Shown piece after piece: positions 4,693 to 26,227 of a DNA stretch of 64,000 bases (the first letter of the stretch is position 1; every line of letters begins with the position of its first letter). The stretch covers positions 1 to 64,000 of the forward strand of contig JAINDK010000070.1 of the NCBI GenBank assembly GCA_019931185.1, in the 5' to 3' direction. Below the pieces are notes generated by a model. The model had not been told where the DNA came from and did not search any database. It saw only the letters and a list, made by a program, of their open reading frames with translations. This DNA comes from Bryobacter sp. CoA8 C33 (GTDB lineage: Bacteria > Acidobacteriota > Terriglobia > Bryobacterales > Bryobacteraceae). The translations under genes and the position numbers were made by a program.

Positions 4693-5455
4693 GAGTTACG
4701 AATCGGAACTGTTCTTTGCCCAGTCGGCGGCACGCAAGGCCGGCGAGGCCTGCATTCGCATTCTGCACGAAGGTGTAGTCGCCGAAACCAAGTCCGACGA
4801 ATCCCCGGTCACCCGGGCCGACAAGGAAAGTGAGCGGCTGATTGTCAGCATCCTTTCCCAGGCCTTTCCCGACGACGGCTTCCTCGGTGAAGAGGGCGCC
4901 AGCCGGACCTCCGCCAATGGCCGCCGGTGGATCATCGACCCCATCGACGGCACGCGTGACTTTGTGCGCAACAACCGCTTGTGGGCGATTCTGATCGGGC
5001 TCGAGGAGAACGGCGAGCCGGTGGTGGGCATCTGCTATCTGCCGATGCTGGGTGAGATGTATTATGCCGCCAAGGGGCAAGGCGCCTTTCTCGACGGGAC
5101 GCCCATCCGGGCCTCGAAGATCGATACCCCCAAGCAGGCCGTCGTCTGCGTCAACAAGCTCAATGGAGTAACGCAACCGCCCTTCGGGCCGCGGCTCCTC
5201 GACTGGTTGGCAACGTTCTGGTGTGTGCGGGTGTTTGGCGGTATCTACGACGCGATGCTCGTGGCGAGCGGTCGCATGGAGATCTGGATGGAGCCGAGCG
5301 TGCAGCCGTGGGACCTTTGTGCGCCGGCCTGCATCCTGCGGGAAGCAGGGGCGCGGTTCTTTGCTCTCGACGGCAAGGAATCGATTTATGAAGGTAACGG
5401 TGTTGCCTGCGCTCCGGGCATGGAGCCGGAAGTGCGGCGGTACCTCGGGCTCTAG
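4691..5455 (+). CDS. Inositol monophosphatase family phosphatase (HisN/SuhB-like)
   Basis: Mg-dependent, Li-sensitive-type phosphatase of 254 residues. Metal ligands are visible as Glu67-Glu68 in LGEEG and Asp83/Asp86 in the DPIDGTRDF motif. The C-terminal WDLCAP is the counterpart of the family WDxAA motif. Substrate could be inositol phosphate, histidinol phosphate (HisN type) or PAP, and the sequence alone does not decide. ATG 4691 was chosen because homology begins there (MSYESELFF). The longer frame upstream runs inside the opposite ligase gene. Its stop shares CTAG with the stop of the convergent methyltransferase pseudogene. Confidence 0.88.
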   Translation: MSYESELFFAQSAARKAGEACIRILHEGVVAETKSDESPVTRADKESERLIVSILSQAFPDDGFLGEEGASRTSANGRRWIIDPIDGTRDFVRNNRLWAILIGLEENGEPVVGICYLPMLGEMYYAAKGQGAFLDGTPIRASKIDTPKQAVVCVNKLNGVTQPPFGPRLLDWLATFWCVRVFGGIYDAMLVASGRMEIWMEPSVQPWDLCAPACILREAGARFFALDGKESIYEGNGVACAPGMEPEVRRYLGL

Positions 5456-7184: not shown

Positions 7185-8093
7185 TTATCGCCCCGCGGCT
7201 AAAGTCTGATCGCTATTCCAGATATCGCGGGCCACGGCCCAGCCACCGCCAGGAAGTCTTTCGTAGATGGTGATGTATTTACCCGCGTCCTGCATGCCCG
7301 GGCCACTTTCGTCAGGGGACATCGAGATCGCGAAGGTGCCGCTTTCGATCGCCCGGTCTCCCGCAATGTGCAGTTCGCTCACCGACAAGGCAAACTGGAC
7401 TCGGCTCATAGCACCGAGAAACCCTGCTGCCCAGGATTGAATGTTGGTCTTGCCGGCATTGGCTGGGGCGTTCGGAGGCATCTGTACGGCGTCGTCGCTA
7501 AAGACTCCGGCCCACGCCATTGCGTCGCGAGCGTTGAGAGCAGCCACATGCGTCTGACGAATCGCATCGATGACGGCAACATCGCTCTTTTCCTCTCCGA
7601 TGACACTGGCAGGTTCTTCCGGAAGTGGGCCGTGAATATCGATTTGAAACTTCGCTGCTAGTTCCATGAGTTTTGCCATGTCTGGTGGCGAGGGTGGGTC
7701 CGCGATCGGTGTAGCCTGTTCCAGCAGGAAATGCTCAAAGCCAGCGGGAGCACACAGTATCAACATACTGGCGGGGGCGCTGCCGACAATCTTGAAACCG
7801 TGAGGAATACCTCGCGGCCCGAAAACATAAGTGCCCGCTTCTGCCTTCAACCACTTGCCATCGCAGACGAATGCTACTTCACCCTCCAGAACATAAAACG
7901 CTTCATCCTCGCGATGGTGCGTGTGGTAAGGCGAGGCAAATCCGGGCGGCATCATCCAGTGCTCCATCAGTCCAAACGCTCCATTGGTGGTTTCTCCGGT
8001 GGACCTCATCAGAGTTGGTAGCCCCAAAAACCGGAAAGCGGAATCTTCTCTCCGGTTCAGGTAAGGTTCTTGCAATCTTTCAATCAGGTCCAT
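7185..8093 (-). CDS. Cupin domain fused to a SnoaL-like (DUF4440) domain
   Basis: Two-domain soluble protein of 302 residues. Residues about 40-115 form a cupin, with metal-site motif HTHHREDEAFYVLEGE and second motif GIPHGFK. Residues about 172-295 resemble the SnoaL/DUF4440 cone fold (IDAIRQTHVAALNARDAMAW, then a tryptophan-rich end). Both folds bind small molecules or metals, so an isomerase, dioxygenase or sensor role is possible, but no substrate can be named. It is transcribed divergently from the ECF sigma gene across 75 bp that hold a perfect inverted repeat, so it may belong to that regulon. Confidence 0.85.
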   Translation of the reverse strand: MDLIERLQEPYLNRREDSAFRFLGLPTLMRSTGETTNGAFGLMEHWMMPPGFASPYHTHHREDEAFYVLEGEVAFVCDGKWLKAEAGTYVFGPRGIPHGFKIVGSAPASMLILCAPAGFEHFLLEQATPIADPPSPPDMAKLMELAAKFQIDIHGPLPEEPASVIGEEKSDVAVIDAIRQTHVAALNARDAMAWAGVFSDDAVQMPPNAPANAGKTNIQSWAAGFLGAMSRVQFALSVSELHIAGDRAIESGTFAISMSPDESGPGMQDAGKYITIYERLPGGGWAVARDIWNSDQTLAAGR

Positions 8094-8132
8094 CCTCCTC
8101 AGTGTTCGCGCCGATCCGCGCGTGATAATCGG

Positions 8133-8163
8133 ATGTGTAACAAGTCACCCCGCCGTTACACAT
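8133..8163. promoter_or_regulatory. Perfect 9-bp inverted repeat between cupin and ECF sigma genes
   Basis: ATGTGTAAC at 8133-8141 and its exact complement GTTACACAT at 8155-8163 are separated by 13 bp. The dyad lies 40 bp upstream of the cupin start and just before the sigma-factor start, so a bound dimer could control both directions. A -10-like TAAAAT (8163-8168) abuts the right arm. It could instead form an RNA hairpin, but its position between two divergent genes favours an operator. Confidence 0.55.
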
Positions 8164-8168
8164 AAAAT

Positions 8169-8735
8169 GTGATGGTGGCTTCTGAATTGAATGTCTGCGA
8201 ATTAGCGGATGCGGAACTGGTGCGGCGCATCGGCTCCGGCAGTGCGCGCGAAGCAGAAGCCGAGCTTGTCCGGCGCATGGTTCCGCGCGTCCGTCTCTAC
8301 GGACTCCGCCACCTGCGAGACCAACAGGCTGCGGACGATCTCACGCAACAGGTTCTGATCACTCTCCTCGAGGCGCTGCGCGCGGGCCGGCTTCGGGATC
8401 CGGAAAAACTTGTCTCTTTCGTCCTGGGAACTTGCCGCATGATGGTGCTCGACCAGCGCCGAGGCACGCAGAGAAAGCAACGGCTGCTTGAACAATTTGG
8501 GGCGGATCTTCTGGCGCCGGCGCAATCTTTTTTGCCTCAGCTTGACTATGGACAACTCAGGCGCTGCATGCAGAATCTGAAAGAGCGCGAACGGGCCGTC
8601 GTACTCATGACTATCTACGACGAGCAGACGAGCACGGACGTCGCCCGCTTCTTGAGTGTTTCTGAATCGAATGTGCGGGTGATTCGCCACCGGGCAATTC
8701 ACCAACTGCGGGACTGCATGGGGGTTGTTGCATGA
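8169..8735 (+). CDS. ECF-type RNA polymerase sigma factor
   Basis: Sigma-70 family regulator of 188 residues with only regions 2 and 4. Region 2 is visible as QQAADDLTQQVLITLLEAL through VLGTCRMMVLDQRRG. Region 4 is LKERERAVVLMTIYDEQTS followed by the helix-turn-helix VARFLSVSESNVRVIRHRA. The frame opens at GTG 8169 with ATG at 8172, and either could start. The stop overlaps the next start by four bases (ATGA), pairing it with a zinc-finger anti-sigma factor. It probably directs transcription of its own operon and perhaps of the divergent cupin gene. Confidence 0.93.
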   Translation: MMVASELNVCELADAELVRRIGSGSAREAEAELVRRMVPRVRLYGLRHLRDQQAADDLTQQVLITLLEALRAGRLRDPEKLVSFVLGTCRMMVLDQRRGTQRKQRLLEQFGADLLAPAQSFLPQLDYGQLRRCMQNLKERERAVVLMTIYDEQTSTDVARFLSVSESNVRVIRHRAIHQLRDCMGVVA

Positions 8736-19946: not shown

Positions 19947-20531
19947 TCTATTCTTCCGTCTTTTGGGACTGCCTCCTCGAAAACAAGAAGCGGCGTGGGG
20001 AACTGGACATGAAGGCAAGGCGCTGGTGCGCGCTGGTCCTCTTAGCTTGCAAAAATCGCGGCTGATTCGCTAGACGGTTGAGACCGGACGCTTAGTGCGC
20101 CAGCCAAAGCTGGCAGGAGATAGTTGATGAAAGTTCAATACGGAAAAGATGTAGCAAGTCATTCCGGCCCCGAGTCATGCGGAGGCGCTCGCGAGGGTGC
20201 CGCTGAAGCGTTGACAGGAGAAACCGGCGGGTCAGCCATTGAGCCGCGAAATCAGGAATTCAGGACGCCGACGCCGTTAAGCGACGCAGAAGGCAATACA
20301 AACCAGTGCGATAGATGCGAGTCCTGGAATGGTCCTGCGCGGTCGGAGACCCTGTACACGCCGGGACGTTTCCTGCACAGAAGCTGGGAGATCTCCGCCG
20401 TGCCCGACGCGACGCCGCCGGGCAACTCAGGGAAGGCCGAGTGCCGCACGCCTGAGACAACAGCGGTGGAGAAGTCGGATGCGTTCAATTTACCTGGGAA
20501 GCCATCGAACAAGGGGAGCAATCCCGCGGAG

Positions 20532-21929
20532 ATGGTGGAGGGAAGGAACGCAGCCAAGGGAAACGCCGAACAGGTTCCAGCACACCGGACCCAGAGCCGG
20601 ATTAGCCGTGCGTCGACGGGCCTGGGACGCGTACGTCAGGCAGCGCGCCGGGATCGGCGGCTGCGGTTCACGGCGCTCATGCATCACATCACGCCGCAGC
20701 AACTAATGGACAGCTTTTACAGCCTCCAGAAGAACGCGGCGGCGGTCGTGGACGGAGTAACGTGGCGGGAGTACGAGAAGATCCTTCCACAGCGGGGGGA
20801 CGAGTTGCATCGAATGGTCCATGTCGGGGCATTTCGGGCAACGCCATCACGGCGGGTTTACATACCCAAAGCCGATGGCCGTCAACGTCCGCTGGGGATT
20901 GCCTCGATTGAGGACAAGATCGTGCAGCAGGCCGTCGTCACGGTGCTGGGAGCGATCTATGAAGAGGATTTTCTTGGCTTCTCGTATGGATTCAGACCGG
21001 GGCGCGGACAGCACGATGCGCTGGACGCCCTTGCGGTCGGGATCAAGAGCCGGAAGGTGAACTGGATCGTAGATGCGGACATTCGCTCGTTCTTCGACGA
21101 AATCGATCACGGGTGGATGTTGCGGTTTCTCGAACACCGGATTGCCGACCAGCGGATCATTCGCCTGATTCGTAAATGGATCGAAGCGGGCGTGATCGAA
21201 GATGGAAAGCGGATTCCCGCTGAAAGGGGAACTCCGCAAGGGGCTGTAGTCTCGCCATTGCTGGCGAACATCCATCTGTACCACGTCTTCGATCTATGGG
21301 TTCAGCGCTGGCGGAAATCGCCAGGGCGAGGAGAGGTTATCGTGGTACGTTACGCCGACGACAGTGTAGTAGGCTTCGAGCCCGTGGGGACGGCGCGAGC
21401 TTTTCTGGATGCACTCCAGGAACGGCTCGCAAAGTTCGGCCTGACTCCGCATCCCGACAAAACGCGCTTGATTGAGTTTGGCCGCTTTGCGGTCGAGCGG
21501 CGGCGCAAGAAGGGGCAGGGCCGACCGGAGACGTTCGACTTCCTCGGGTTCACGCACTGCTGTGGAACTGACCGAAACGGCAAGTTCCAGGTCATCAGGC
21601 TGACGGCCAAGAAGCGAATGTGCGCGACGCTGACTTCGATCCGGAAAAAGCTATACCAGCGACGGCACGAACCCGTGCCGGTGTTTGGCGCCTGGCTTCA
21701 CCGGGTCATGAGTGGCTACTTCGAGTACCACGCAGACCCAACGAACCTGCTGCGATTGAATGGCTTCCGCGCCGAGGTCTGCCGCGCCTGGCGGCATGCT
21801 TTACTACGCAGAAGCCAACGGAGCGGGCTCAACTGGACCCGTTGCAATCGACTCACCCGTAAATACGTATCGCCCTGCCGGGTCCTGCATCCGTATCCCG
21901 AGGAGCGCTTCTTCGCGTCACGACCCTAG
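20532..21929 (+). CDS. ltrA: Group II intron reverse transcriptase/maturase (C-terminus displaced)
   Basis: Reverse transcriptase that helps splice and mobilise its host intron. From ATG 20532 (MVEGRNAAKGNAEQ) it has 465 residues; the frame is open back to 20124 but that part overlaps intron domain I. Visible: RT0 region TGLGRVRQAARRDRRLRFTA, fingers VYIPKADGRQRPLGI, palm GTPQGAVVSPLLANI, catalytic RYADDSVVGF, the FDFLGFTH thumb start, and a maturase domain X. No HNH endonuclease. The normal end (…EPYAVTLHVRICAGGGQ) is found at 22091-22150 in the post-insertion sequence, separated from the body by a 159-bp element that supplies the TAG at 21927-21929. About 20 C-terminal residues are lost. 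Confidence 0.88.
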   Translation: MVEGRNAAKGNAEQVPAHRTQSRISRASTGLGRVRQAARRDRRLRFTALMHHITPQQLMDSFYSLQKNAAAVVDGVTWREYEKILPQRGDELHRMVHVGAFRATPSRRVYIPKADGRQRPLGIASIEDKIVQQAVVTVLGAIYEEDFLGFSYGFRPGRGQHDALDALAVGIKSRKVNWIVDADIRSFFDEIDHGWMLRFLEHRIADQRIIRLIRKWIEAGVIEDGKRIPAERGTPQGAVVSPLLANIHLYHVFDLWVQRWRKSPGRGEVIVVRYADDSVVGFEPVGTARAFLDALQERLAKFGLTPHPDKTRLIEFGRFAVERRRKKGQGRPETFDFLGFTHCCGTDRNGKFQVIRLTAKKRMCATLTSIRKKLYQRRHEPVPVFGAWLHRVMSGYFEYHADPTNLLRLNGFRAEVCRAWRHALLRRSQRSGLNWTRCNRLTRKYVSPCRVLHPYPEERFFASRP

Positions 21930-22092
21930 GAACTTGTTGAAAAACTCACTGTTTCGAAAAGCGGCCTCACGAGTTGAAAATTTTTGGCCCACAAACGGCC
22001 CAGAATCGATCGGCAGCGGGCTGGCAATGGTTTGCCGACCCCCGTGAAAGGGTTGAAATCGGCAAGAGGGGATTGTTTCAACAGGCTCCTAG
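21926..22092. mobile_element. 159-bp MITE-like insertion with CTAG target duplication
   Basis: The element spans 21930-22088 and is flanked on both sides by CTAG (21926-21929 and 22089-22092). Its ends are imperfect inverted repeats of 18 bp matching at 14 positions: left GAACTTGTTGAAAAACTC, right (complement) GAGCCTGTTGAAACAATC. It has no coding capacity. A full-length IS with matching ends would be needed to mobilise it and none is in this window. The GAGCCTGTTGAAA-type end resembles those of DDE insertion sequences, but I cannot name the family with certainty. Confidence 0.75.
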
Positions 22093-22096
22093 GCAG

Positions 22097-22169
22097 GAGC
22101 CGTATGCGGTAACACTGCACGTACGGATCTGTGCGGGGGGCGGTCAGTGATGGCCGTCCCTACCGCGAC
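22097..22169 (+). ncRNA. Group II intron catalytic domains V and VI
   Basis: Domain V is 34 nt (22097-22130): GAGCCGTATGC pairs with GCACGTACGGATCT around the loop GGTAACACT. It carries the AGC catalytic triad. Domain VI (22131-22169) is a GC-rich hairpin (GCGGGGGGCGG / CCGTCCCTACCGC) ending in GAC at the 3' splice site. Both appear intact despite the insertion eight bases upstream of domain V, so the RNA may still be able to splice. Confidence 0.75.
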
Positions 22170-22274: not shown

Positions 22275-22605
22275 CGCCGAAGGGCGAGGGCACGTCTTCG
22301 AGGAGTCGGACAGCGGAACAGTATCGATGAGCCATTCGAACAAAAGCGGGAAGCCGCCGGCGGAGAGTGAGGAGGGAAGGCCGCTGATCACGCGGAACAC
22401 TCATCAATCAAACCCGCTCTCGACGCCAAGCGAGCGCGGCGTGGCCCCGGGGTTGGCGGCTGTGCGCAAAGCAGCAAGGGAGTGGAAGGAGATGAAGTTC
22501 ATCGCCGGGCTTCACCGTTTGACAACTGCGCTGCTCCGAGACGGCTTCCACGCCTTGAAGCGTAGCGCCCCACCAGGAGCACCGGGGGGCTGGCCTCCCT
22601 ATGCC
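22275..22605 (+). pseudogene. Remnant of a second group II intron maturase
   Basis: A frame starting before ATG 22327 reads EESDSGTVSMSHSNKSGKPP, then GLAAVRKAAREWKEMKFIAG and LLRDGFHALKRSAPPGAPGG. These correspond to the region just before and including RT0 of the same maturase family as the intact copy (compare RVRQAARRDRRLRFTA and FYSLQKNAAAVVDG). Similarity stops near 22605, before the catalytic palm, and the expected PGVDGVTW is degenerate. It is a different, older intron, not a duplicate of the neighbour. Its 5' portion probably extends back toward 22170. Confidence 0.65.
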
Positions 22606-22900
22606 CCAAACAGAGTATGCTCCCAGACACTTCAGCGAAAAAGCGTCTCACTGGAACGCTTTCACACGGGCACCATACTGGGCCGGACCCCATGGCCGGG
22701 AGACCGCGCCGGCGGCATCGTCCTCAACCCTGGTAGGCGCCGCAACGGGAAGCGCTCGGGAGAATTGGTTGAGTCACCCCGCCCCTGCCGGAACCCGCGC
22801 GAAAGTCCTACCCCGCAACACGCCGGCGCCGACCAGGGATCCCCCCGGACCGGAGCGCAGAACGTGCGCACCAAACGCCCCCGCCGGGCTTCGTTCGGCT
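22606..22900. other. Gene-free stretch after the intron remnant
   Basis: About 300 bp with no recognisable gene, RNA or repeat. It separates the intron debris from the thioredoxin-fold gene and reads as decayed sequence. Open frames here are GC-driven and match nothing I recognise. Confidence 0.4.
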
Positions 22901-23440
22901 TCATGAGCATCCCCCGTCCAGCGAACACTCGGACTTACCAGCTCCGACCGGCTGACCGGAACCAACCGGTGCCAACGTACCCGTCTCCTGAATCATTTTC
23001 TGGATGTCCGCACCAAGTTGTAGATCGGGAAAATGCCCAAACTGGTGCAAACGGAGGTATCCGGCCCGATCGATTAAGGCAAGGCTGGGGGTGCCTCGAA
23101 AACCAAATCGCGCCATCGTCAGCGGGACATCGCCACCGCCCGGCGCGTCTACGCCAATCGGAAAAGTCAAACGATACTCGTGGAGGAAAGCTGCGAGCGC
23201 CACAGCAGTCATCGCTCCGTGGTGTTCAAACACGGTGTGCAGACCGATGACGGCCACCTCGGCGGGATCAAACGTTTCATGGATGCGCTGAAGTTGTGGC
23301 AGACTCGTGCTGACGCAGCCCGGACACAACATCTGAAACGCACCTAACACGACGACGCGCCCCCGCAGTTCTGCAAGGGTGAGGGGTTTGCTGTTGAACC
23401 ATTCAGCGGTCGTCCACTCCGCGGCAAGTTCCCTTCTCAT
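22901..23440 (-). CDS. Thioredoxin-fold (redoxin/TlpA-like) protein
   Basis: 179 residues, cytosolic as annotated (no signal peptide from ATG 23440). AGGAG lies upstream of this ATG, and the longer frame upstream lacks homology. The fold signature is LRGRVVVLGAFQMLCPGCVS with redox pair Cys39 and Cys42 (CPGC), then PEVAVIGLHTVFEHH-like strand and cis-Pro in FRGTPSLALIDRAGYLRLH. The tail carries extra cysteines (CSLDGGCS). The PGC pair and early WF segment resemble AhpC/TSA-like redoxins. It sits downstream of the protoglobin gene on the same strand with 47 bp between, so a joint role in oxidative or nitrosative stress is plausible. Confidence 0.82.
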   Translation of the reverse strand: MRRELAAEWTTAEWFNSKPLTLAELRGRVVVLGAFQMLCPGCVSTSLPQLQRIHETFDPAEVAVIGLHTVFEHHGAMTAVALAAFLHEYRLTFPIGVDAPGGGDVPLTMARFGFRGTPSLALIDRAGYLRLHQFGHFPDLQLGADIQKMIQETGTLAPVGSGQPVGAGKSECSLDGGCS

Positions 23441-23487
23441 CGATATCTCCTTTCTCCTCTCTGGCCTGTGGCTGGCCTGTGGCAAAG

Positions 23488-24174
23488 CTAGAAATCTCCG
23501 TCCTTGACATACGGGTGACTCCACAGAATCACCTGGAGGATCACCGACTTCACCCATGCCTGATGCATCTTCTCTACCTCGTCCTGGCTATGTCCTTTCT
23601 TGGCGAGGAACGGCTTGAGCGTTGCCGTGATCGGATAAATAAAGGCCGGCAGATACCGGTAGCTGATGTGATCGACCGACGCAGCGTGGTCGGTCTGATT
23701 CTTACCCGTACGATGATGACGACGGGCGATCTCAGCTTGGTAATCCAACCAGCGTTGGTCGTAGTTTGCCGAGGCCGTGTCCAAAATCCATTGGCCAAAG
23801 CGTTTGCGAACCGCCGACAGGTAGGCGCTATCCGGCTGACCGTCACTCTTCCTGCCGAAATAGTAAACAAGGTGCGGACGAGAGGCAACGAAGCCGTACC
23901 AGACATCCAGAACCGCTTCCGTTTGGTCCTGCAAAACCTCGCGGGACGTCCGCAAATAGCGAATATCTTCTTCGGTGAACAGGACGGACTGCTTCAGCAA
24001 ATCCAGTTCTTTCATGGAGACCGGAGAGGCAGGCAGCTGCCCGCCGTGGGTGTAACCGGGAATTGACATGTTGGTTCCTTTTTTTGAGAGTGCTGGCGTG
24101 GGTGTCTGGGCGTTCAGCGCTGCGGCGGTCAAAAAAGCGCCGCCGAGTATGGACGGGAGAAAAGCGGTGGTCAT
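23488..24174 (-). CDS. Protoglobin (haem sensor-type globin), possibly exported
   Basis: Globin of the protoglobin family, which binds O2, CO or NO at haem. Core 193 residues from ATG 24069: MSIPGYTHGG, ELDLLKQSVLFTEEDIRYL, VWYGFVASRPHLVYYF, KRFGQWILDT, then the proximal histidine in EIARRHHRTGKN. The frame extends upstream to ATG 24174 and that extension reads as a signal peptide (MTTAFLPSILGGAFLTAAALNAQ). AAGGAA precedes both ATGs, and the predicted promoter lies upstream of both. The long form would be periplasmic, unusual for this family; the short form would be cytosolic. Divergent from the MarR gene. Confidence 0.88.
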   Translation of the reverse strand: MTTAFLPSILGGAFLTAAALNAQTPTPALSKKGTNMSIPGYTHGGQLPASPVSMKELDLLKQSVLFTEEDIRYLRTSREVLQDQTEAVLDVWYGFVASRPHLVYYFGRKSDGQPDSAYLSAVRKRFGQWILDTASANYDQRWLDYQAEIARRHHRTGKNQTDHAASVDHISYRYLPAFIYPITATLKPFLAKKGHSQDEVEKMHQAWVKSVILQVILWSHPYVKDGDF

Positions 24175-24208
24175 CTGAGGTTTTCCTTGTCGTGGTGGAA
24201 TCCTGATC

Positions 24209-24223
24209 GTGTCGCCACGACAC
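24209..24223. promoter_or_regulatory. Palindrome at the protoglobin transcription start
   Basis: GTGTCG-cca-CGACAC is a perfect inverted repeat with a 3-bp spacer. It covers the predicted +1 (about 24221) of the minus-strand protoglobin promoter, the right place for a repressor site. The MarR protein encoded next door is the obvious candidate to bind it. Confidence 0.5.
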
Positions 24224-24227
24224 TATC

Positions 24228-24256
24228 ATCCTATCAGCGCCGGTGTTTCTTGTCCA
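24228..24256 (-). promoter_or_regulatory. Sigma-70 promoter of the protoglobin gene
   Basis: Read on the minus strand: -35 TGGACA (24256-24251, five of six consensus bases), 17-bp spacer, -10 TAGGAT (24233-24228). Predicted start near 24221, upstream of the signal-peptide ATG at 24174. Its -35 box overlaps the -35 of the divergent MarR promoter almost completely. Confidence 0.6.
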
Positions 24257-24278
24257 GATAGTATTGTGACGATACAAT
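24250..24278 (+). promoter_or_regulatory. Sigma-70 promoter of the MarR gene (leaderless)
   Basis: -35 TTGTCC (24250-24255), 17-bp spacer, -10 TACAAT (24273-24278, one mismatch to consensus). The start codon ATG begins at 24285, six bases after the -10, so the transcript should begin at the AUG itself. No Shine-Dalgarno sequence is present, consistent with leaderless translation. Confidence 0.6.
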
Positions 24279-24280
24279 AC
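24261..24280. promoter_or_regulatory. Operator-like palindrome over the MarR -10 box
   Basis: GTATTGT-gacgat-ACAATAC is a perfect 7-bp inverted repeat with a 6-bp spacer (20 bp in all). It contains the -10 hexamer of the MarR promoter. MarR proteins bind 16-20-bp palindromes of this kind and usually autorepress, so autoregulation is the simplest reading. Confidence 0.6.
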
Positions 24281-24284
24281 AAAA

Positions 24285-24839
24285 ATGCCTTCCGCCTATG
24301 CCCTGCACCTTATCGAGCGGCTCTCCGCTCTTCTGCGTAGCGAAGTCCGCAGAACTGCGGCGCTCGAAGGGCTTGAACCCGTTCACGTGGTAGCTCTCTG
24401 GTACCTTTCTCGGTCCAATTCCTTCAGCGACAATCCCTTGGCCGTTGGTGCGTTTCTTGGCCTGACGAAGGGAAACATGTCGCAGCGCCTGAACGTGCTC
24501 GAAGCGAAGGGGTTCCTTGCAAAGGGCGTCGACAAGGAGGATCGGCGCCGGGTTCACCTCTCGCTGACGCCTTCCGGAAAGGCGGCTCTCGGACGGCTCT
24601 ATCCACCAGCGAGTTGGATCAACGGCGCAAGCCCCGAACTCGAACAGGGCTTGGAGAATGCCCTTCAATCGATCATTGCCGCCCATGGAGGCAAATCTTT
24701 CGGCATCTGCCGTACCTGTCGCTTTCACGATTCCCGCGCCTCCGGCGGCTTCTGCCAACTCCTCCAAATCCCCCTCTCCGCCAAACAGGCTGGCCAGATC
24801 TGCCAGGAGCATCAAGCACGGGAGGTACATCCGTCGTGA
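24285..24839 (+). CDS. MarR family regulator with cysteine-rich C-terminal tail
   Basis: 184 residues. Residues about 5-125 form a MarR winged helix: LEPVHVVALWYLSRSN, recognition helix region FLGLTKGNMSQRLNVLEAKG, and the wing KEDRRRVHLSLTPSGKAAL. After a linker, the tail (about 147-184) carries Cys-x2-Cys (CRTC), a third Cys (GFCQLL) and Cys-x-x-His (CQEH), a pattern able to hold zinc or an Fe-S cluster. This suggests metal or redox/NO sensing, which suits the divergent protoglobin and thioredoxin-fold genes. The stop overlaps the MOSC gene start (GTGA), so both are one operon. Confidence 0.9.
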   Translation: MPSAYALHLIERLSALLRSEVRRTAALEGLEPVHVVALWYLSRSNSFSDNPLAVGAFLGLTKGNMSQRLNVLEAKGFLAKGVDKEDRRRVHLSLTPSGKAALGRLYPPASWINGASPELEQGLENALQSIIAAHGGKSFGICRTCRFHDSRASGGFCQLLQIPLSAKQAGQICQEHQAREVHPS

Positions 24840-25468
24840 CTGTTCTGACCATCAGGAAGGGCACCATCAAGCAAAGAATCCAGGCTGACGGGAAACCTTG
24901 GGACACCGCCATCGTCAAGACGGCGGTGGCGGGACCCGTCTCCATTTCGGCCACGGGAATTGATGGCGATCAGCAGGCGGATCGCGAACACCATGGTGGC
25001 GTGGACAAGGCGATCCTGCTTTACTGTCGCGATCACTACCGCCTCTGGCGGCAAGAGTACGCTACTGCCGCGCCTCCTGAAGGTTCCCTGGGAGAGAACC
25101 TGGAAGTCAGCGGACTCAGCGAAGAATCCGTTTGCATCGGGGATATCCATGTTTGTAGGGGCGTTCGTCTCGAAGTGAGTCAACCACGTCAGCCATGCTG
25201 GAAGCCCGCCGTTCTTCATTCGCTGCCGGACCTGACGGCTCGCATGCTGAAAAGTGGACGCATCGGCTGGTACGTCAGAGTGCTTCAGGGCGGCTTCATC
25301 GAGGCCCCGGCGATTTGGGAACTGGTGTCCCGCCCCAATCCGCAGTGGACCGTTCAGCGCTCTTCATTCGTGCGACACTTCAGCCGCGACTCCGCCGAAA
25401 TAGCCTCCTTGTCCTCCCTGAAAGCGCTATCCGCGGTCTGGCGAGGGGCACTCGCGGGAAGGCGATAA
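24836..25468 (+). CDS. MOSC domain protein (YiiM-like)
   Basis: 210 residues with the MOSC fold used by molybdenum-cofactor sulfurases and N-hydroxylated-base reductases. Visible: ATGIDGDQQADREHHGGVDKAI (the HGG-x-DKA motif), PEGSLGENLEVSGL, and the conserved cysteine in QPRQPCWKPA. The 3-alpha tail (RMLKSGRIGWYVRVLQGGF) matches YiiM, which acts on 6-N-hydroxylaminopurine with electron partners. Start is GTG 24836, overlapping the MarR stop. It may detoxify N-hydroxylated compounds formed under nitrosative stress; that link is inference from context. Confidence 0.9.
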   Translation: MTVLTIRKGTIKQRIQADGKPWDTAIVKTAVAGPVSISATGIDGDQQADREHHGGVDKAILLYCRDHYRLWRQEYATAAPPEGSLGENLEVSGLSEESVCIGDIHVCRGVRLEVSQPRQPCWKPAVLHSLPDLTARMLKSGRIGWYVRVLQGGFIEAPAIWELVSRPNPQWTVQRSSFVRHFSRDSAEIASLSSLKALSAVWRGALAGRR

Positions 25469-26227
25469 GCTTCACCCGCTGCGTCCTCGCCCGTTAGAAA
25501 AACGCGGCCCCGAACTCTTCGCCTTCCCCTCCCCATCGCTTCCTTGCCGTTCAGAACTCTCCCGCCGGCCCGGTACCACCCCACGGTCGCCAGCGGGATC
25601 TCCTCCGGCAGAGCCATCCCCAGCGCCCCGTCTCTCGCCGCCGCCCTCCCCCCTGAGAATACTTTCCTGCCGCCGGTCCCCCCGGCGCCTCGCCCTTGCC
25701 CCCGCCACACCAACGGGCGCCGCGCGTCCCCGCAGTAACGCCCGCTCCCGCCTCACGCACGCCAGGAAGTCCACCTTGAGCGTCGACCGCGAGGCCCCAA
25801 ACGCCGCACTTTGCCAGTCTGAGGACCCGCCGGAAGTTGATGGACTGGAAACTCCCCCGCCCCGAACCGGACCATCCCCGGCCCCAACCCGGCGCAGCAC
25901 GCCGGAGCATCGAGCCCCGGCCCGCCGCCCCCCCCCATCTCCCCACCCGCGCCATCTCCCCCCTCCGCCCAAACGATTCCCACCCCGGCTGGGATCGCCG
26001 GGACTCTGACGCCCGATGCGGGGCGGGGCTAATTCCACAGGATCAAAGAGCGCTAGCCCTCTGATCTTTTCTGGGTAGACATGGCGCAAAGCGTCGGCGA
26101 AGTGGACGAAAGTATTCCAAGAAATTCTTTTGTGGGGGAGGGGAAGGGAAGCGGGCAATTTCGTTAGCCCGCTGATGATGGGATGATTTTGCCCGGGGTG
26201 GAAGTTTGGCGGCGAAGCCGCGCGGAG
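25469..26227. other. 760-bp gene-free, strongly C-rich region
   Basis: No gene is supported in this long gap. The plus strand is very pyrimidine-rich (long C runs near 25650-25980), so the minus strand has G-runs that could form G-quadruplexes. Minus-strand open frames are Gly/Arg-rich artefacts. A short minus-strand segment near 26040-26130 reads WNTFVHFADALRHVYPEKIR and looks more protein-like than the rest, but no start, domain or partner was found. It could be decayed coding sequence at the right edge of the accessory island. Confidence 0.4.

Follow-up and report, generated by a model that had tools for sequence, protein, structure and literature searches.

A cysteine-tailed MarR regulator with paired operators beside a protoglobin gene in Bryobacter: a candidate locus for nitric oxide sensing

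Which signal is read by a MarR protein that ends in a cluster of cysteines and is encoded back to back with a protoglobin gene? The question is raised by a locus in a 64,000-nucleotide stretch of DNA from Bryobacter sp. CoA8 C33, called here the window, which is contig C64 of a 5.05-Mb genome with a completeness of 97.66%. Two gene pairs diverge at the locus, protoglobin and redoxin on the minus strand, MarR and MOSC on the plus strand. The sequence data suggest, with a probability of roughly 0.6, that the locus encodes a local MarR repressor, which would sense nitric oxide (NO) or a near relative through a metal ion or an iron-sulphur (Fe-S) cluster held by four tail cysteines (Cys4).

Operators and promoters of the divergent region

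A scan of positions 22500-26000 returned exactly two promoter-like sites, both in the divergent region, against 0.5 +/- 0.7 in shuffled sequences. The site serving the protoglobin-redoxin pair spans 24228-24256 on the minus strand (TGGACA, 17 nt, TAGGAT preceded by TG), that serving the MarR-MOSC pair 24250-24278 on the plus strand (TTGTCC, 17 nt, TACAAT). The -35 boxes overlap, as stated in an earlier reading of the bare sequence, hereafter the original prediction. The two palindromes placed there by the same reading are real. In the interval 24205-24227 18 of 23 positions are palindromic, in 24257-24279 16 of 23, and when the 110-bp region was resampled 3000 times by a Markov model, two non-overlapping, equally palindromic 23-mers arose only twice. 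Their limits had been drawn a few bases too narrow, and their common identity had been missed. An inverted-repeat finder pairs 24206-24227 with 24257-24278 (22-nt arms, 77%), and the palindromes are thus two versions of one site, the predicted operator copies 1 and 2. Copy 1 surrounds the point where globin transcription is predicted to begin; copy 2 covers the spacer and the -10 box of the MarR promoter.

A matrix for this operator was built from 17 sites at nine loci of other organisms (L006, L007, L009-L012, L014, L015, L064), excluding the window and L005, the locus of a 70%-identical relative; the seed consensus for the training sites was picked by eye after all regions, window included, had been viewed. 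Copy 2 obtained the top score in the 64-kb window (24.5 bits), and no score so high was found in 6 Mb of Markov DNA modelled on the window. Copy 1 reached 9.0 bits, a value expected 0.64 times per 64 kb and 0.0012 times per 120 bp. The two sites of L005 are the two best scores of that locus (28.0 and 26.7 bits). Between its divergent genes the window thus holds a pair of AGTATCGAnTCGATACT-like operators, the mark of the first of the two branches described below. In 9 of the 11 first-branch regions measured, window included, 49-56 bp separate the centres of the two best operators; L008, L013, L016 and L017 were omitted because of poor best matches. The exceptions are L014 (38 bp) and L064 (28 bp), where sites are weak. 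A TTGTC[AC] box is found in 7 of the 11 regions, and in all seven, the window among them, begins exactly 18 bp before the centre of the proximal operator. L007 has a third, weaker site.

Searching the Bryobacter genome for the operator with a stricter pattern, allowing up to 2 mismatches, gave no site. A looser pattern (up to 3 mismatches) gave 119 matches, against 70 for the reversed control; among the 118 besides that of the window, 14 loci were scored, and the best obtained 10.0 bits, compared with 24.5 bits at the window site. Three other first-branch genomes host five sites conforming to the stricter pattern. Three of these are at the MarR locus (two in G015, one in G059), the remaining two elsewhere (G059, G188). 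The reversed control of the stricter pattern yielded two sites in G000, and none in the other three genomes. The only exact operator match in the viral collection falls inside a serine recombinase-like frame, and was taken as chance.

The cysteine tail and its two branches

The MarR gene (24285-24839, plus strand) encodes a putative repressor matching PF12802 (MarR_2) with 32.9 bits, over a cut-off of 27, and PF01047 with 19.7 bits, under the cut-off of 24.6. The coding stretch of its tail (residues 142-176; 24708-24812, plus strand) specifies C142-x2-C145-x11-C157-x15-C173-x2-H176, and thus the C-terminal pattern C-x2-C-x(n)-C-x(n)-C by which Cys4-MarR proteins are recognized here. All 14 aligned proteins, that of the window among them, keep C142, C145, C157 and C173. 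The final histidine varies: of the CxxC, C, CxxH cluster originally described, only the cysteines hold.

A profile of the 14 proteins run against 396 Acidobacteriota genomes gave four strong matches above 200 bits, each of them a protein from which the profile had been built. Next came a second group, 26 loci at 77-110 bits; weaker matches below it are mostly ordinary MarR proteins. All 26 second-branch tails carry four cysteines, and 23 also fit a tighter pattern in which the last residue is fixed. A 27th protein, from G079 (70.6 bits), has the four tail cysteines as well. Among 20 ordinary MarR proteins taken as controls, one, L156, likewise carries four cysteines in its tail, which is of different make. 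In the tree, the 14 first-branch members group as a single clade (support 100/99), which includes the window, L005, three other Acidobacteriota, and sequences from Vibrio, Pseudomonas, Enterobacter, Agarilytica, Polaromonas and Roseobacteraceae. Support is weak (67/6) for the branch that sets the second group apart. Overall, Cys4-MarR proteins were found in Acidobacteriota, Proteobacteria, Thermus and Bacteroidota; several copies lie on plasmid records. A single scan of named genomes beyond plasmids added one relative, the viral collection none. On a Lelliottia plasmid (L065, 1337-1687) the Cys4-MarR gene is apparently shortened; two strong operator-like sites and the genes for a secreted protein and a redoxin remain.

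Many second-branch loci carry a second operator type, AGTTAGGAnTCCTAACT, having a 17-bp frame identical to that of the first, and a different core. With at most one mismatch, it occurs at 12 sites in 11 of the 396 genomes. The reversed control gave 13 sites, so that the number itself is no excess and the evidence is location: 11 of the 12 sites have a Cys4-MarR gene no more than about 1.4 kb away. The exception (G056:C9; L127, 70-86) lies near a contig start, upstream of genes including an acyl-CoA ligase-like frame. The MarR-Hcp locus of this genome carries a site of identical sequence, and the exceptional site could be a second regulatory target. Sites of this type with at most two mismatches are found in 14 of the 26 second-branch loci; in the other 12 they are weaker or missing. 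The recognition helix shifts along with the operator, being TKGTVSQ in much of the first branch and TKATVSD in several second-branch proteins. Plotted on the tree, each operator label requires one change, with only 8 and 14 rows labelled and 23 unlabelled, among which the window, whose own site is too distant from the consensus.

Genes accompanying the regulator

Genes of the module flank 12 of the 14 first-branch members, window included. Protoglobin genes are found in the window, L005 and L015; redoxin genes in the window, L007, L010 and L064; MOSC genes in the window, L014, L016 and L064. Genes for a secreted protein reside in L006, L007, L010, L014 and L064, for thioredoxin/glutaredoxin together with Rof in L009, L011 and L012 (with DUF2024 in L009 and L011), for HTHP in L064. 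Within 1.5 kb of the 26 second-branch genes we counted cytochrome P460 and thioredoxin/glutaredoxin seven times each (the latter with DUF2024 in three), protoglobin and the secreted protein three times each, a DUF438-hemerythrin-PAS protein and YgbA_NO twice each, Hcp and a ferredoxin alone once each; 20 of the 26 counts use references from the window and the plasmid records. One YgbA_NO locus also has a multi-haem cytochrome, the other a ferredoxin. A second case of Hcp was met in G079 (L136), outside the 26 loci. In Thermus, the relative adjoins cytochrome P460, and a nitrite reductase is nearby. Neighbours are therefore interchangeable, the set comprising protoglobin, cytochrome P460, HTHP, hybrid cluster protein, YgbA, hemerythrin, thioredoxin/glutaredoxin, redoxin, secreted protein and MOSC.

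None of 20 ordinary MarR loci, hand-picked down the list from the Acidobacteriota profile search, is flanked by any module gene. This bears on the hypothesis that the window protein is an ordinary small-molecule MarR with a purely structural zinc tail, and that its neighbours co-travel by mobility without a common signal. The patchy spread of the first branch (4 of 396 Acidobacteriota genomes) and the plasmid copies fit such a scenario. Yet, different phyla share one operator geometry, and the neighbours that both branches have in common are absent beside the 20 ordinary genes, making the hypothesis very improbable.

The linkage was monitored from the neighbours as well. Of 51 plasmid records bearing a redoxin relative, 10 were examined, and six of these have a match to the MarR profile within 3 kb (L063, L064, L065 with the shortened gene, L067, L071, L158). 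None was found within this distance in L066, L072, L157 and L159; L072 nonetheless has two operator-like sites (22.4 and 21.0 bits). Of seven plasmid records bearing a protoglobin relative, four were examined: MarR adjoins protoglobin in L015 and L069, and was not seen in L068 and L070.

The MOSC gene (24836-25468, plus strand; PF03473, 101.9 bits) has a GTG start and overlaps the MarR stop by 4 bp, and its product matches the structure 5yhh (E=2.4e-40). The overlapping junction recurs in three Roseobacteraceae loci (L014, L016, L064). The idea of N-hydroxylated compounds in the original prediction rests on this gene, and one may hypothesize a sensor of hydroxylamine or N-hydroxylated bases, with MOSC, P460 and Hcp as detoxifying enzymes. 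The junctions fit, as do cytochrome P460 beside 7 of the 26 second-branch genes and the assignment of Hcp to the NCBIfam hydroxylamine reductase family. Against this, the window protein, though it matches the MOSC domain itself, falls far under the cut-off of the NCBIfam equivalog for 6-hydroxyaminopurine reductase (YiiM), with 127.9 of 294 bits. Moreover, MOSC was not seen in L005, the closest relative, where a different gene pair occupies its position, nor in five gammaproteobacterial first-branch loci (L009-L012, L015). MOSC is optional cargo, the N-hydroxylated-compound idea is less supported, and a hydroxylamine sensor appears unlikely. The two small genes replacing MOSC in L005 (5550-6208) resemble, by reading, a HigB/HigA toxin-antitoxin pair.

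Proposed mechanism and its main competitor

According to the NO hypothesis, a MarR dimer would occupy the two operator copies, spaced by about 52 bp, of which one covers the promoter of MarR-MOSC and the other lies at the start of the protoglobin-redoxin transcript. Since the -10 box of the MarR promoter is inside copy 2, and the predicted globin start inside copy 1, the bound repressor would silence both promoters, its own included. The Cys4 tail may carry an Fe-S cluster or a metal ion, reacting with NO or closely related nitrogen species. So altered, MarR would release DNA, and the freed genes would clear the agent and mend thiols: the heme protein, perhaps exported, may bind or convert NO, the redoxin would reduce damaged thiols, and the MOSC protein would be accessory.

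Hcp, YgbA, ferredoxin-like and hemerythrin-like partners and heme proteins share a common nitrogen-oxide chemistry. YgbA is labelled "nitrous oxide-stimulated promoter" in both Pfam and NCBIfam. What the neighbours have in common is plausibly best captured by NO; together with the HcpR regulon and the ArnR precedent discussed below, they favour a Cys4 cofactor responding to NO or a near relative. The compact stress circuit envisaged in the original prediction is well sustained by the operators, the arrangement of the promoters and the cysteines shared between phyla, and the choice of NO is suggested by the neighbours.

The main rival is a sensor of thiol oxidants. The Cys4 tail would bind zinc and be oxidized by peroxide, hypochlorite, persulfide or electrophiles, and the module would provide a general thiol-redox and heme-peroxidase defence. 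Thioredoxin/glutaredoxin genes, found beside 7 of the 26 second-branch genes, also occur in the P. aeruginosa and Enterobacter loci; the Ruegeria locus holds both redoxin and HTHP, and in Hymenobacter a catalase gene is separated from HTHP by one gene. On the other side, cytochrome P460, protoglobin, Hcp, YgbA and hemerythrin-DUF438 suggest nitrogen oxides rather than peroxide, on the basis of established knowledge and of the available part of PMC1274295. A thiol sensor thus seems doubtful, and still the foremost competitor of the NO hypothesis.

Several observations weigh against NO sensing by a local repressor. As judged with the references used, seven of the 26 second-branch loci have only thioredoxin/glutaredoxin (with DUF2024 in three), and three only the secreted protein, as would fit general thiol stress. 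The gene families at six of the 26 loci (those with DUF438-hemerythrin-PAS, YgbA_NO, Hcp or a ferredoxin alone) were recognized only after the loci had been read, and the independent count is hence 20 of 26. Neither module genes nor a good operator were found in L008, whose contig measures 3.8 kb, or in L017, flanked by insertion sequences; apart from these 2 of 14, neither homologues lacking the cysteines in the same context nor unconserved palindromes were seen. The globin-side operator copy is weak. The window sites are 4-5 mismatches off the consensus, and a scan allowing up to two would miss similar ones, which leaves "local" unproved. The AlphaFold model of MarR, from a two-row alignment, has a predicted local distance difference test score of 52, falling below 40 from about residue 131, too low to judge a convergence of the cysteines. 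The Bryobacter genome, which encodes four Rrf2 proteins, has no match to Hcp or to copper nitrite reductase, in a search that did not include NirS, NO reductase or flavohaemoglobin. Finally, a protoglobin domain is found in 34 of the 396 Acidobacteriota genomes, many times in long frames of different architecture, and Cys4-MarR was seen beside protoglobin in only four of the 34 (that of the window, G204, G315 and G326). Counts from both sides indicate that the regulator predicts its neighbours far better than protoglobin predicts the regulator.

A broader scenario may be tentatively proposed, with slightly less than even odds. Cys4-MarR proteins would form a widespread, undescribed family sensing NO via a C-terminal Cys4 Fe-S cluster, with two operator dialects and interchangeable NO-defence cassettes, among which exported protoglobin and a secreted protein that may be a new NO-defence factor.

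Relation to known systems

A close precedent is ArnR of Corynebacteria, a winged-helix repressor with a [4Fe-4S] cluster on C-terminal cysteines, which is removed from DNA by NO and controls the flavohaemoglobin gene hmp (PMC12343034, in its available part). The window MarR shares with ArnR the winged helix and the C-terminal cysteine site. ArnR differs, as described in the same text, in having three conserved cysteines and no fourth, and in being nearly confined to Actinobacteria. NsrR, an Fe-S, NO-responsive repressor of hmp and hcp according to the available parts of PMC12343034 and PMC1274295, belongs to a different family, Rrf2; the window protein has no Rrf2 match (PF02082) in the Pfam scan. 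The HcpR regulon includes hcp and ferredoxin-, hemerythrin- and cytochrome-like genes, and HcpR operators, as in the two Cys4-MarR branches, change together with the recognition helix (PMC1274295, same part). HcpR has a CRP/FNR fold, for which the window protein has no Pfam match. CioR of Chromobacterium is, in the accessible text of PMC11837568, a MarR-type self-repressor residing beside genes conferring NO tolerance, as in the proposed system. It is of the GbsR type, controls cytochrome bd and is induced by cyanide, and no Cys4 tail is mentioned in that text; on account of the GbsR type reported there, CioR was set aside as a homologue.

No description of the Cys4-MarR family or of the wider module was found in the open literature, covered by titles and abstract starts, with subscription literature largely outside. 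In line with the earlier statement that no account of this exact set was known, the four genes were seen together in the window only, and across Acidobacteriota the co-occurrence of protoglobin, cysteine-tailed MarR and MOSC was likewise observed in the window alone. The nitrogen-oxide regulatory network laid out in PMC1274295 comprises NsrR, NorR, HcpR, DNR and NnrR, and MarR is never mentioned in the available part. If the NO hypothesis is true, Cys4-MarR, with its readable operator, would be one more sensor family in nitrogen-oxide regulation. Protoglobin, HTHP, DUF2024, YgbA and the secreted family would gain a common setting, and their functions would become testable by reporter and binding assays.

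Other features of the locus

The divergent gene set was confirmed by Pfam and structure matches. Pfam assignments are strong for protoglobin and MOSC, slightly over cut-off for MarR_2 and AhpC-TSA. The protoglobin gene (23488-24174, minus strand; PF11563, 117.9 bits, cut-off 25) encodes a homologue of the Methanosarcina acetivorans protoglobin 2veb (E=2e-80, query residues 37-228). The window copy differs in having an N-terminal extension (24068-24174) resembling, by eye, a signal peptide. Similar extensions were seen, again by eye, in 4 of 7 protoglobins adjoining Cys4-MarR (window; L005, about 4811-4912; L015; L130), are absent in L069, L128 and L129, and were not clear in ten other protoglobins compared. 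The genes of the window and of L005 both have another in-frame start at the domain border, preceded by a purine-rich stretch, and two protein forms are thus possible.

The redoxin gene (22901-23440, minus strand) encodes a TlpA-like thioredoxin-fold protein with a CPGC motif (Pfam AhpC-TSA, 33 bits, cut-off 26). The closest solved structure is SPOA0173 (3eyt, E=4.5e-53), of the same family. Relatives adjoin Cys4-MarR genes in Vibrio (L010), Ruegeria (L064), G059 (L007) and others.

The secreted-looking protein, of about 250 residues (L010, 3134-3886; L064, 1944-2705; L069, 1927-2658; L006, about 7396-8202), recurs beside Cys4-MarR in Acidobacteriota, Gamma- and Alphaproteobacteria and Bacteroidota. 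No Pfam match was found in the three copies scanned. HSHWVVL-like and SGNLSLP-like stretches are recognizable in the protein.

A group II intron lies at 20124-22169 of the window. It includes an open reading frame (20124-21929) which, by reading, resembles a reverse transcriptase/maturase, and has Rfam group-II matches at 20130-20352 and 22095-22169, ending about 0.7 kb past the redoxin stop. Directly after MOSC, the interval 25500-26000 is 73% G+C and C-skewed.

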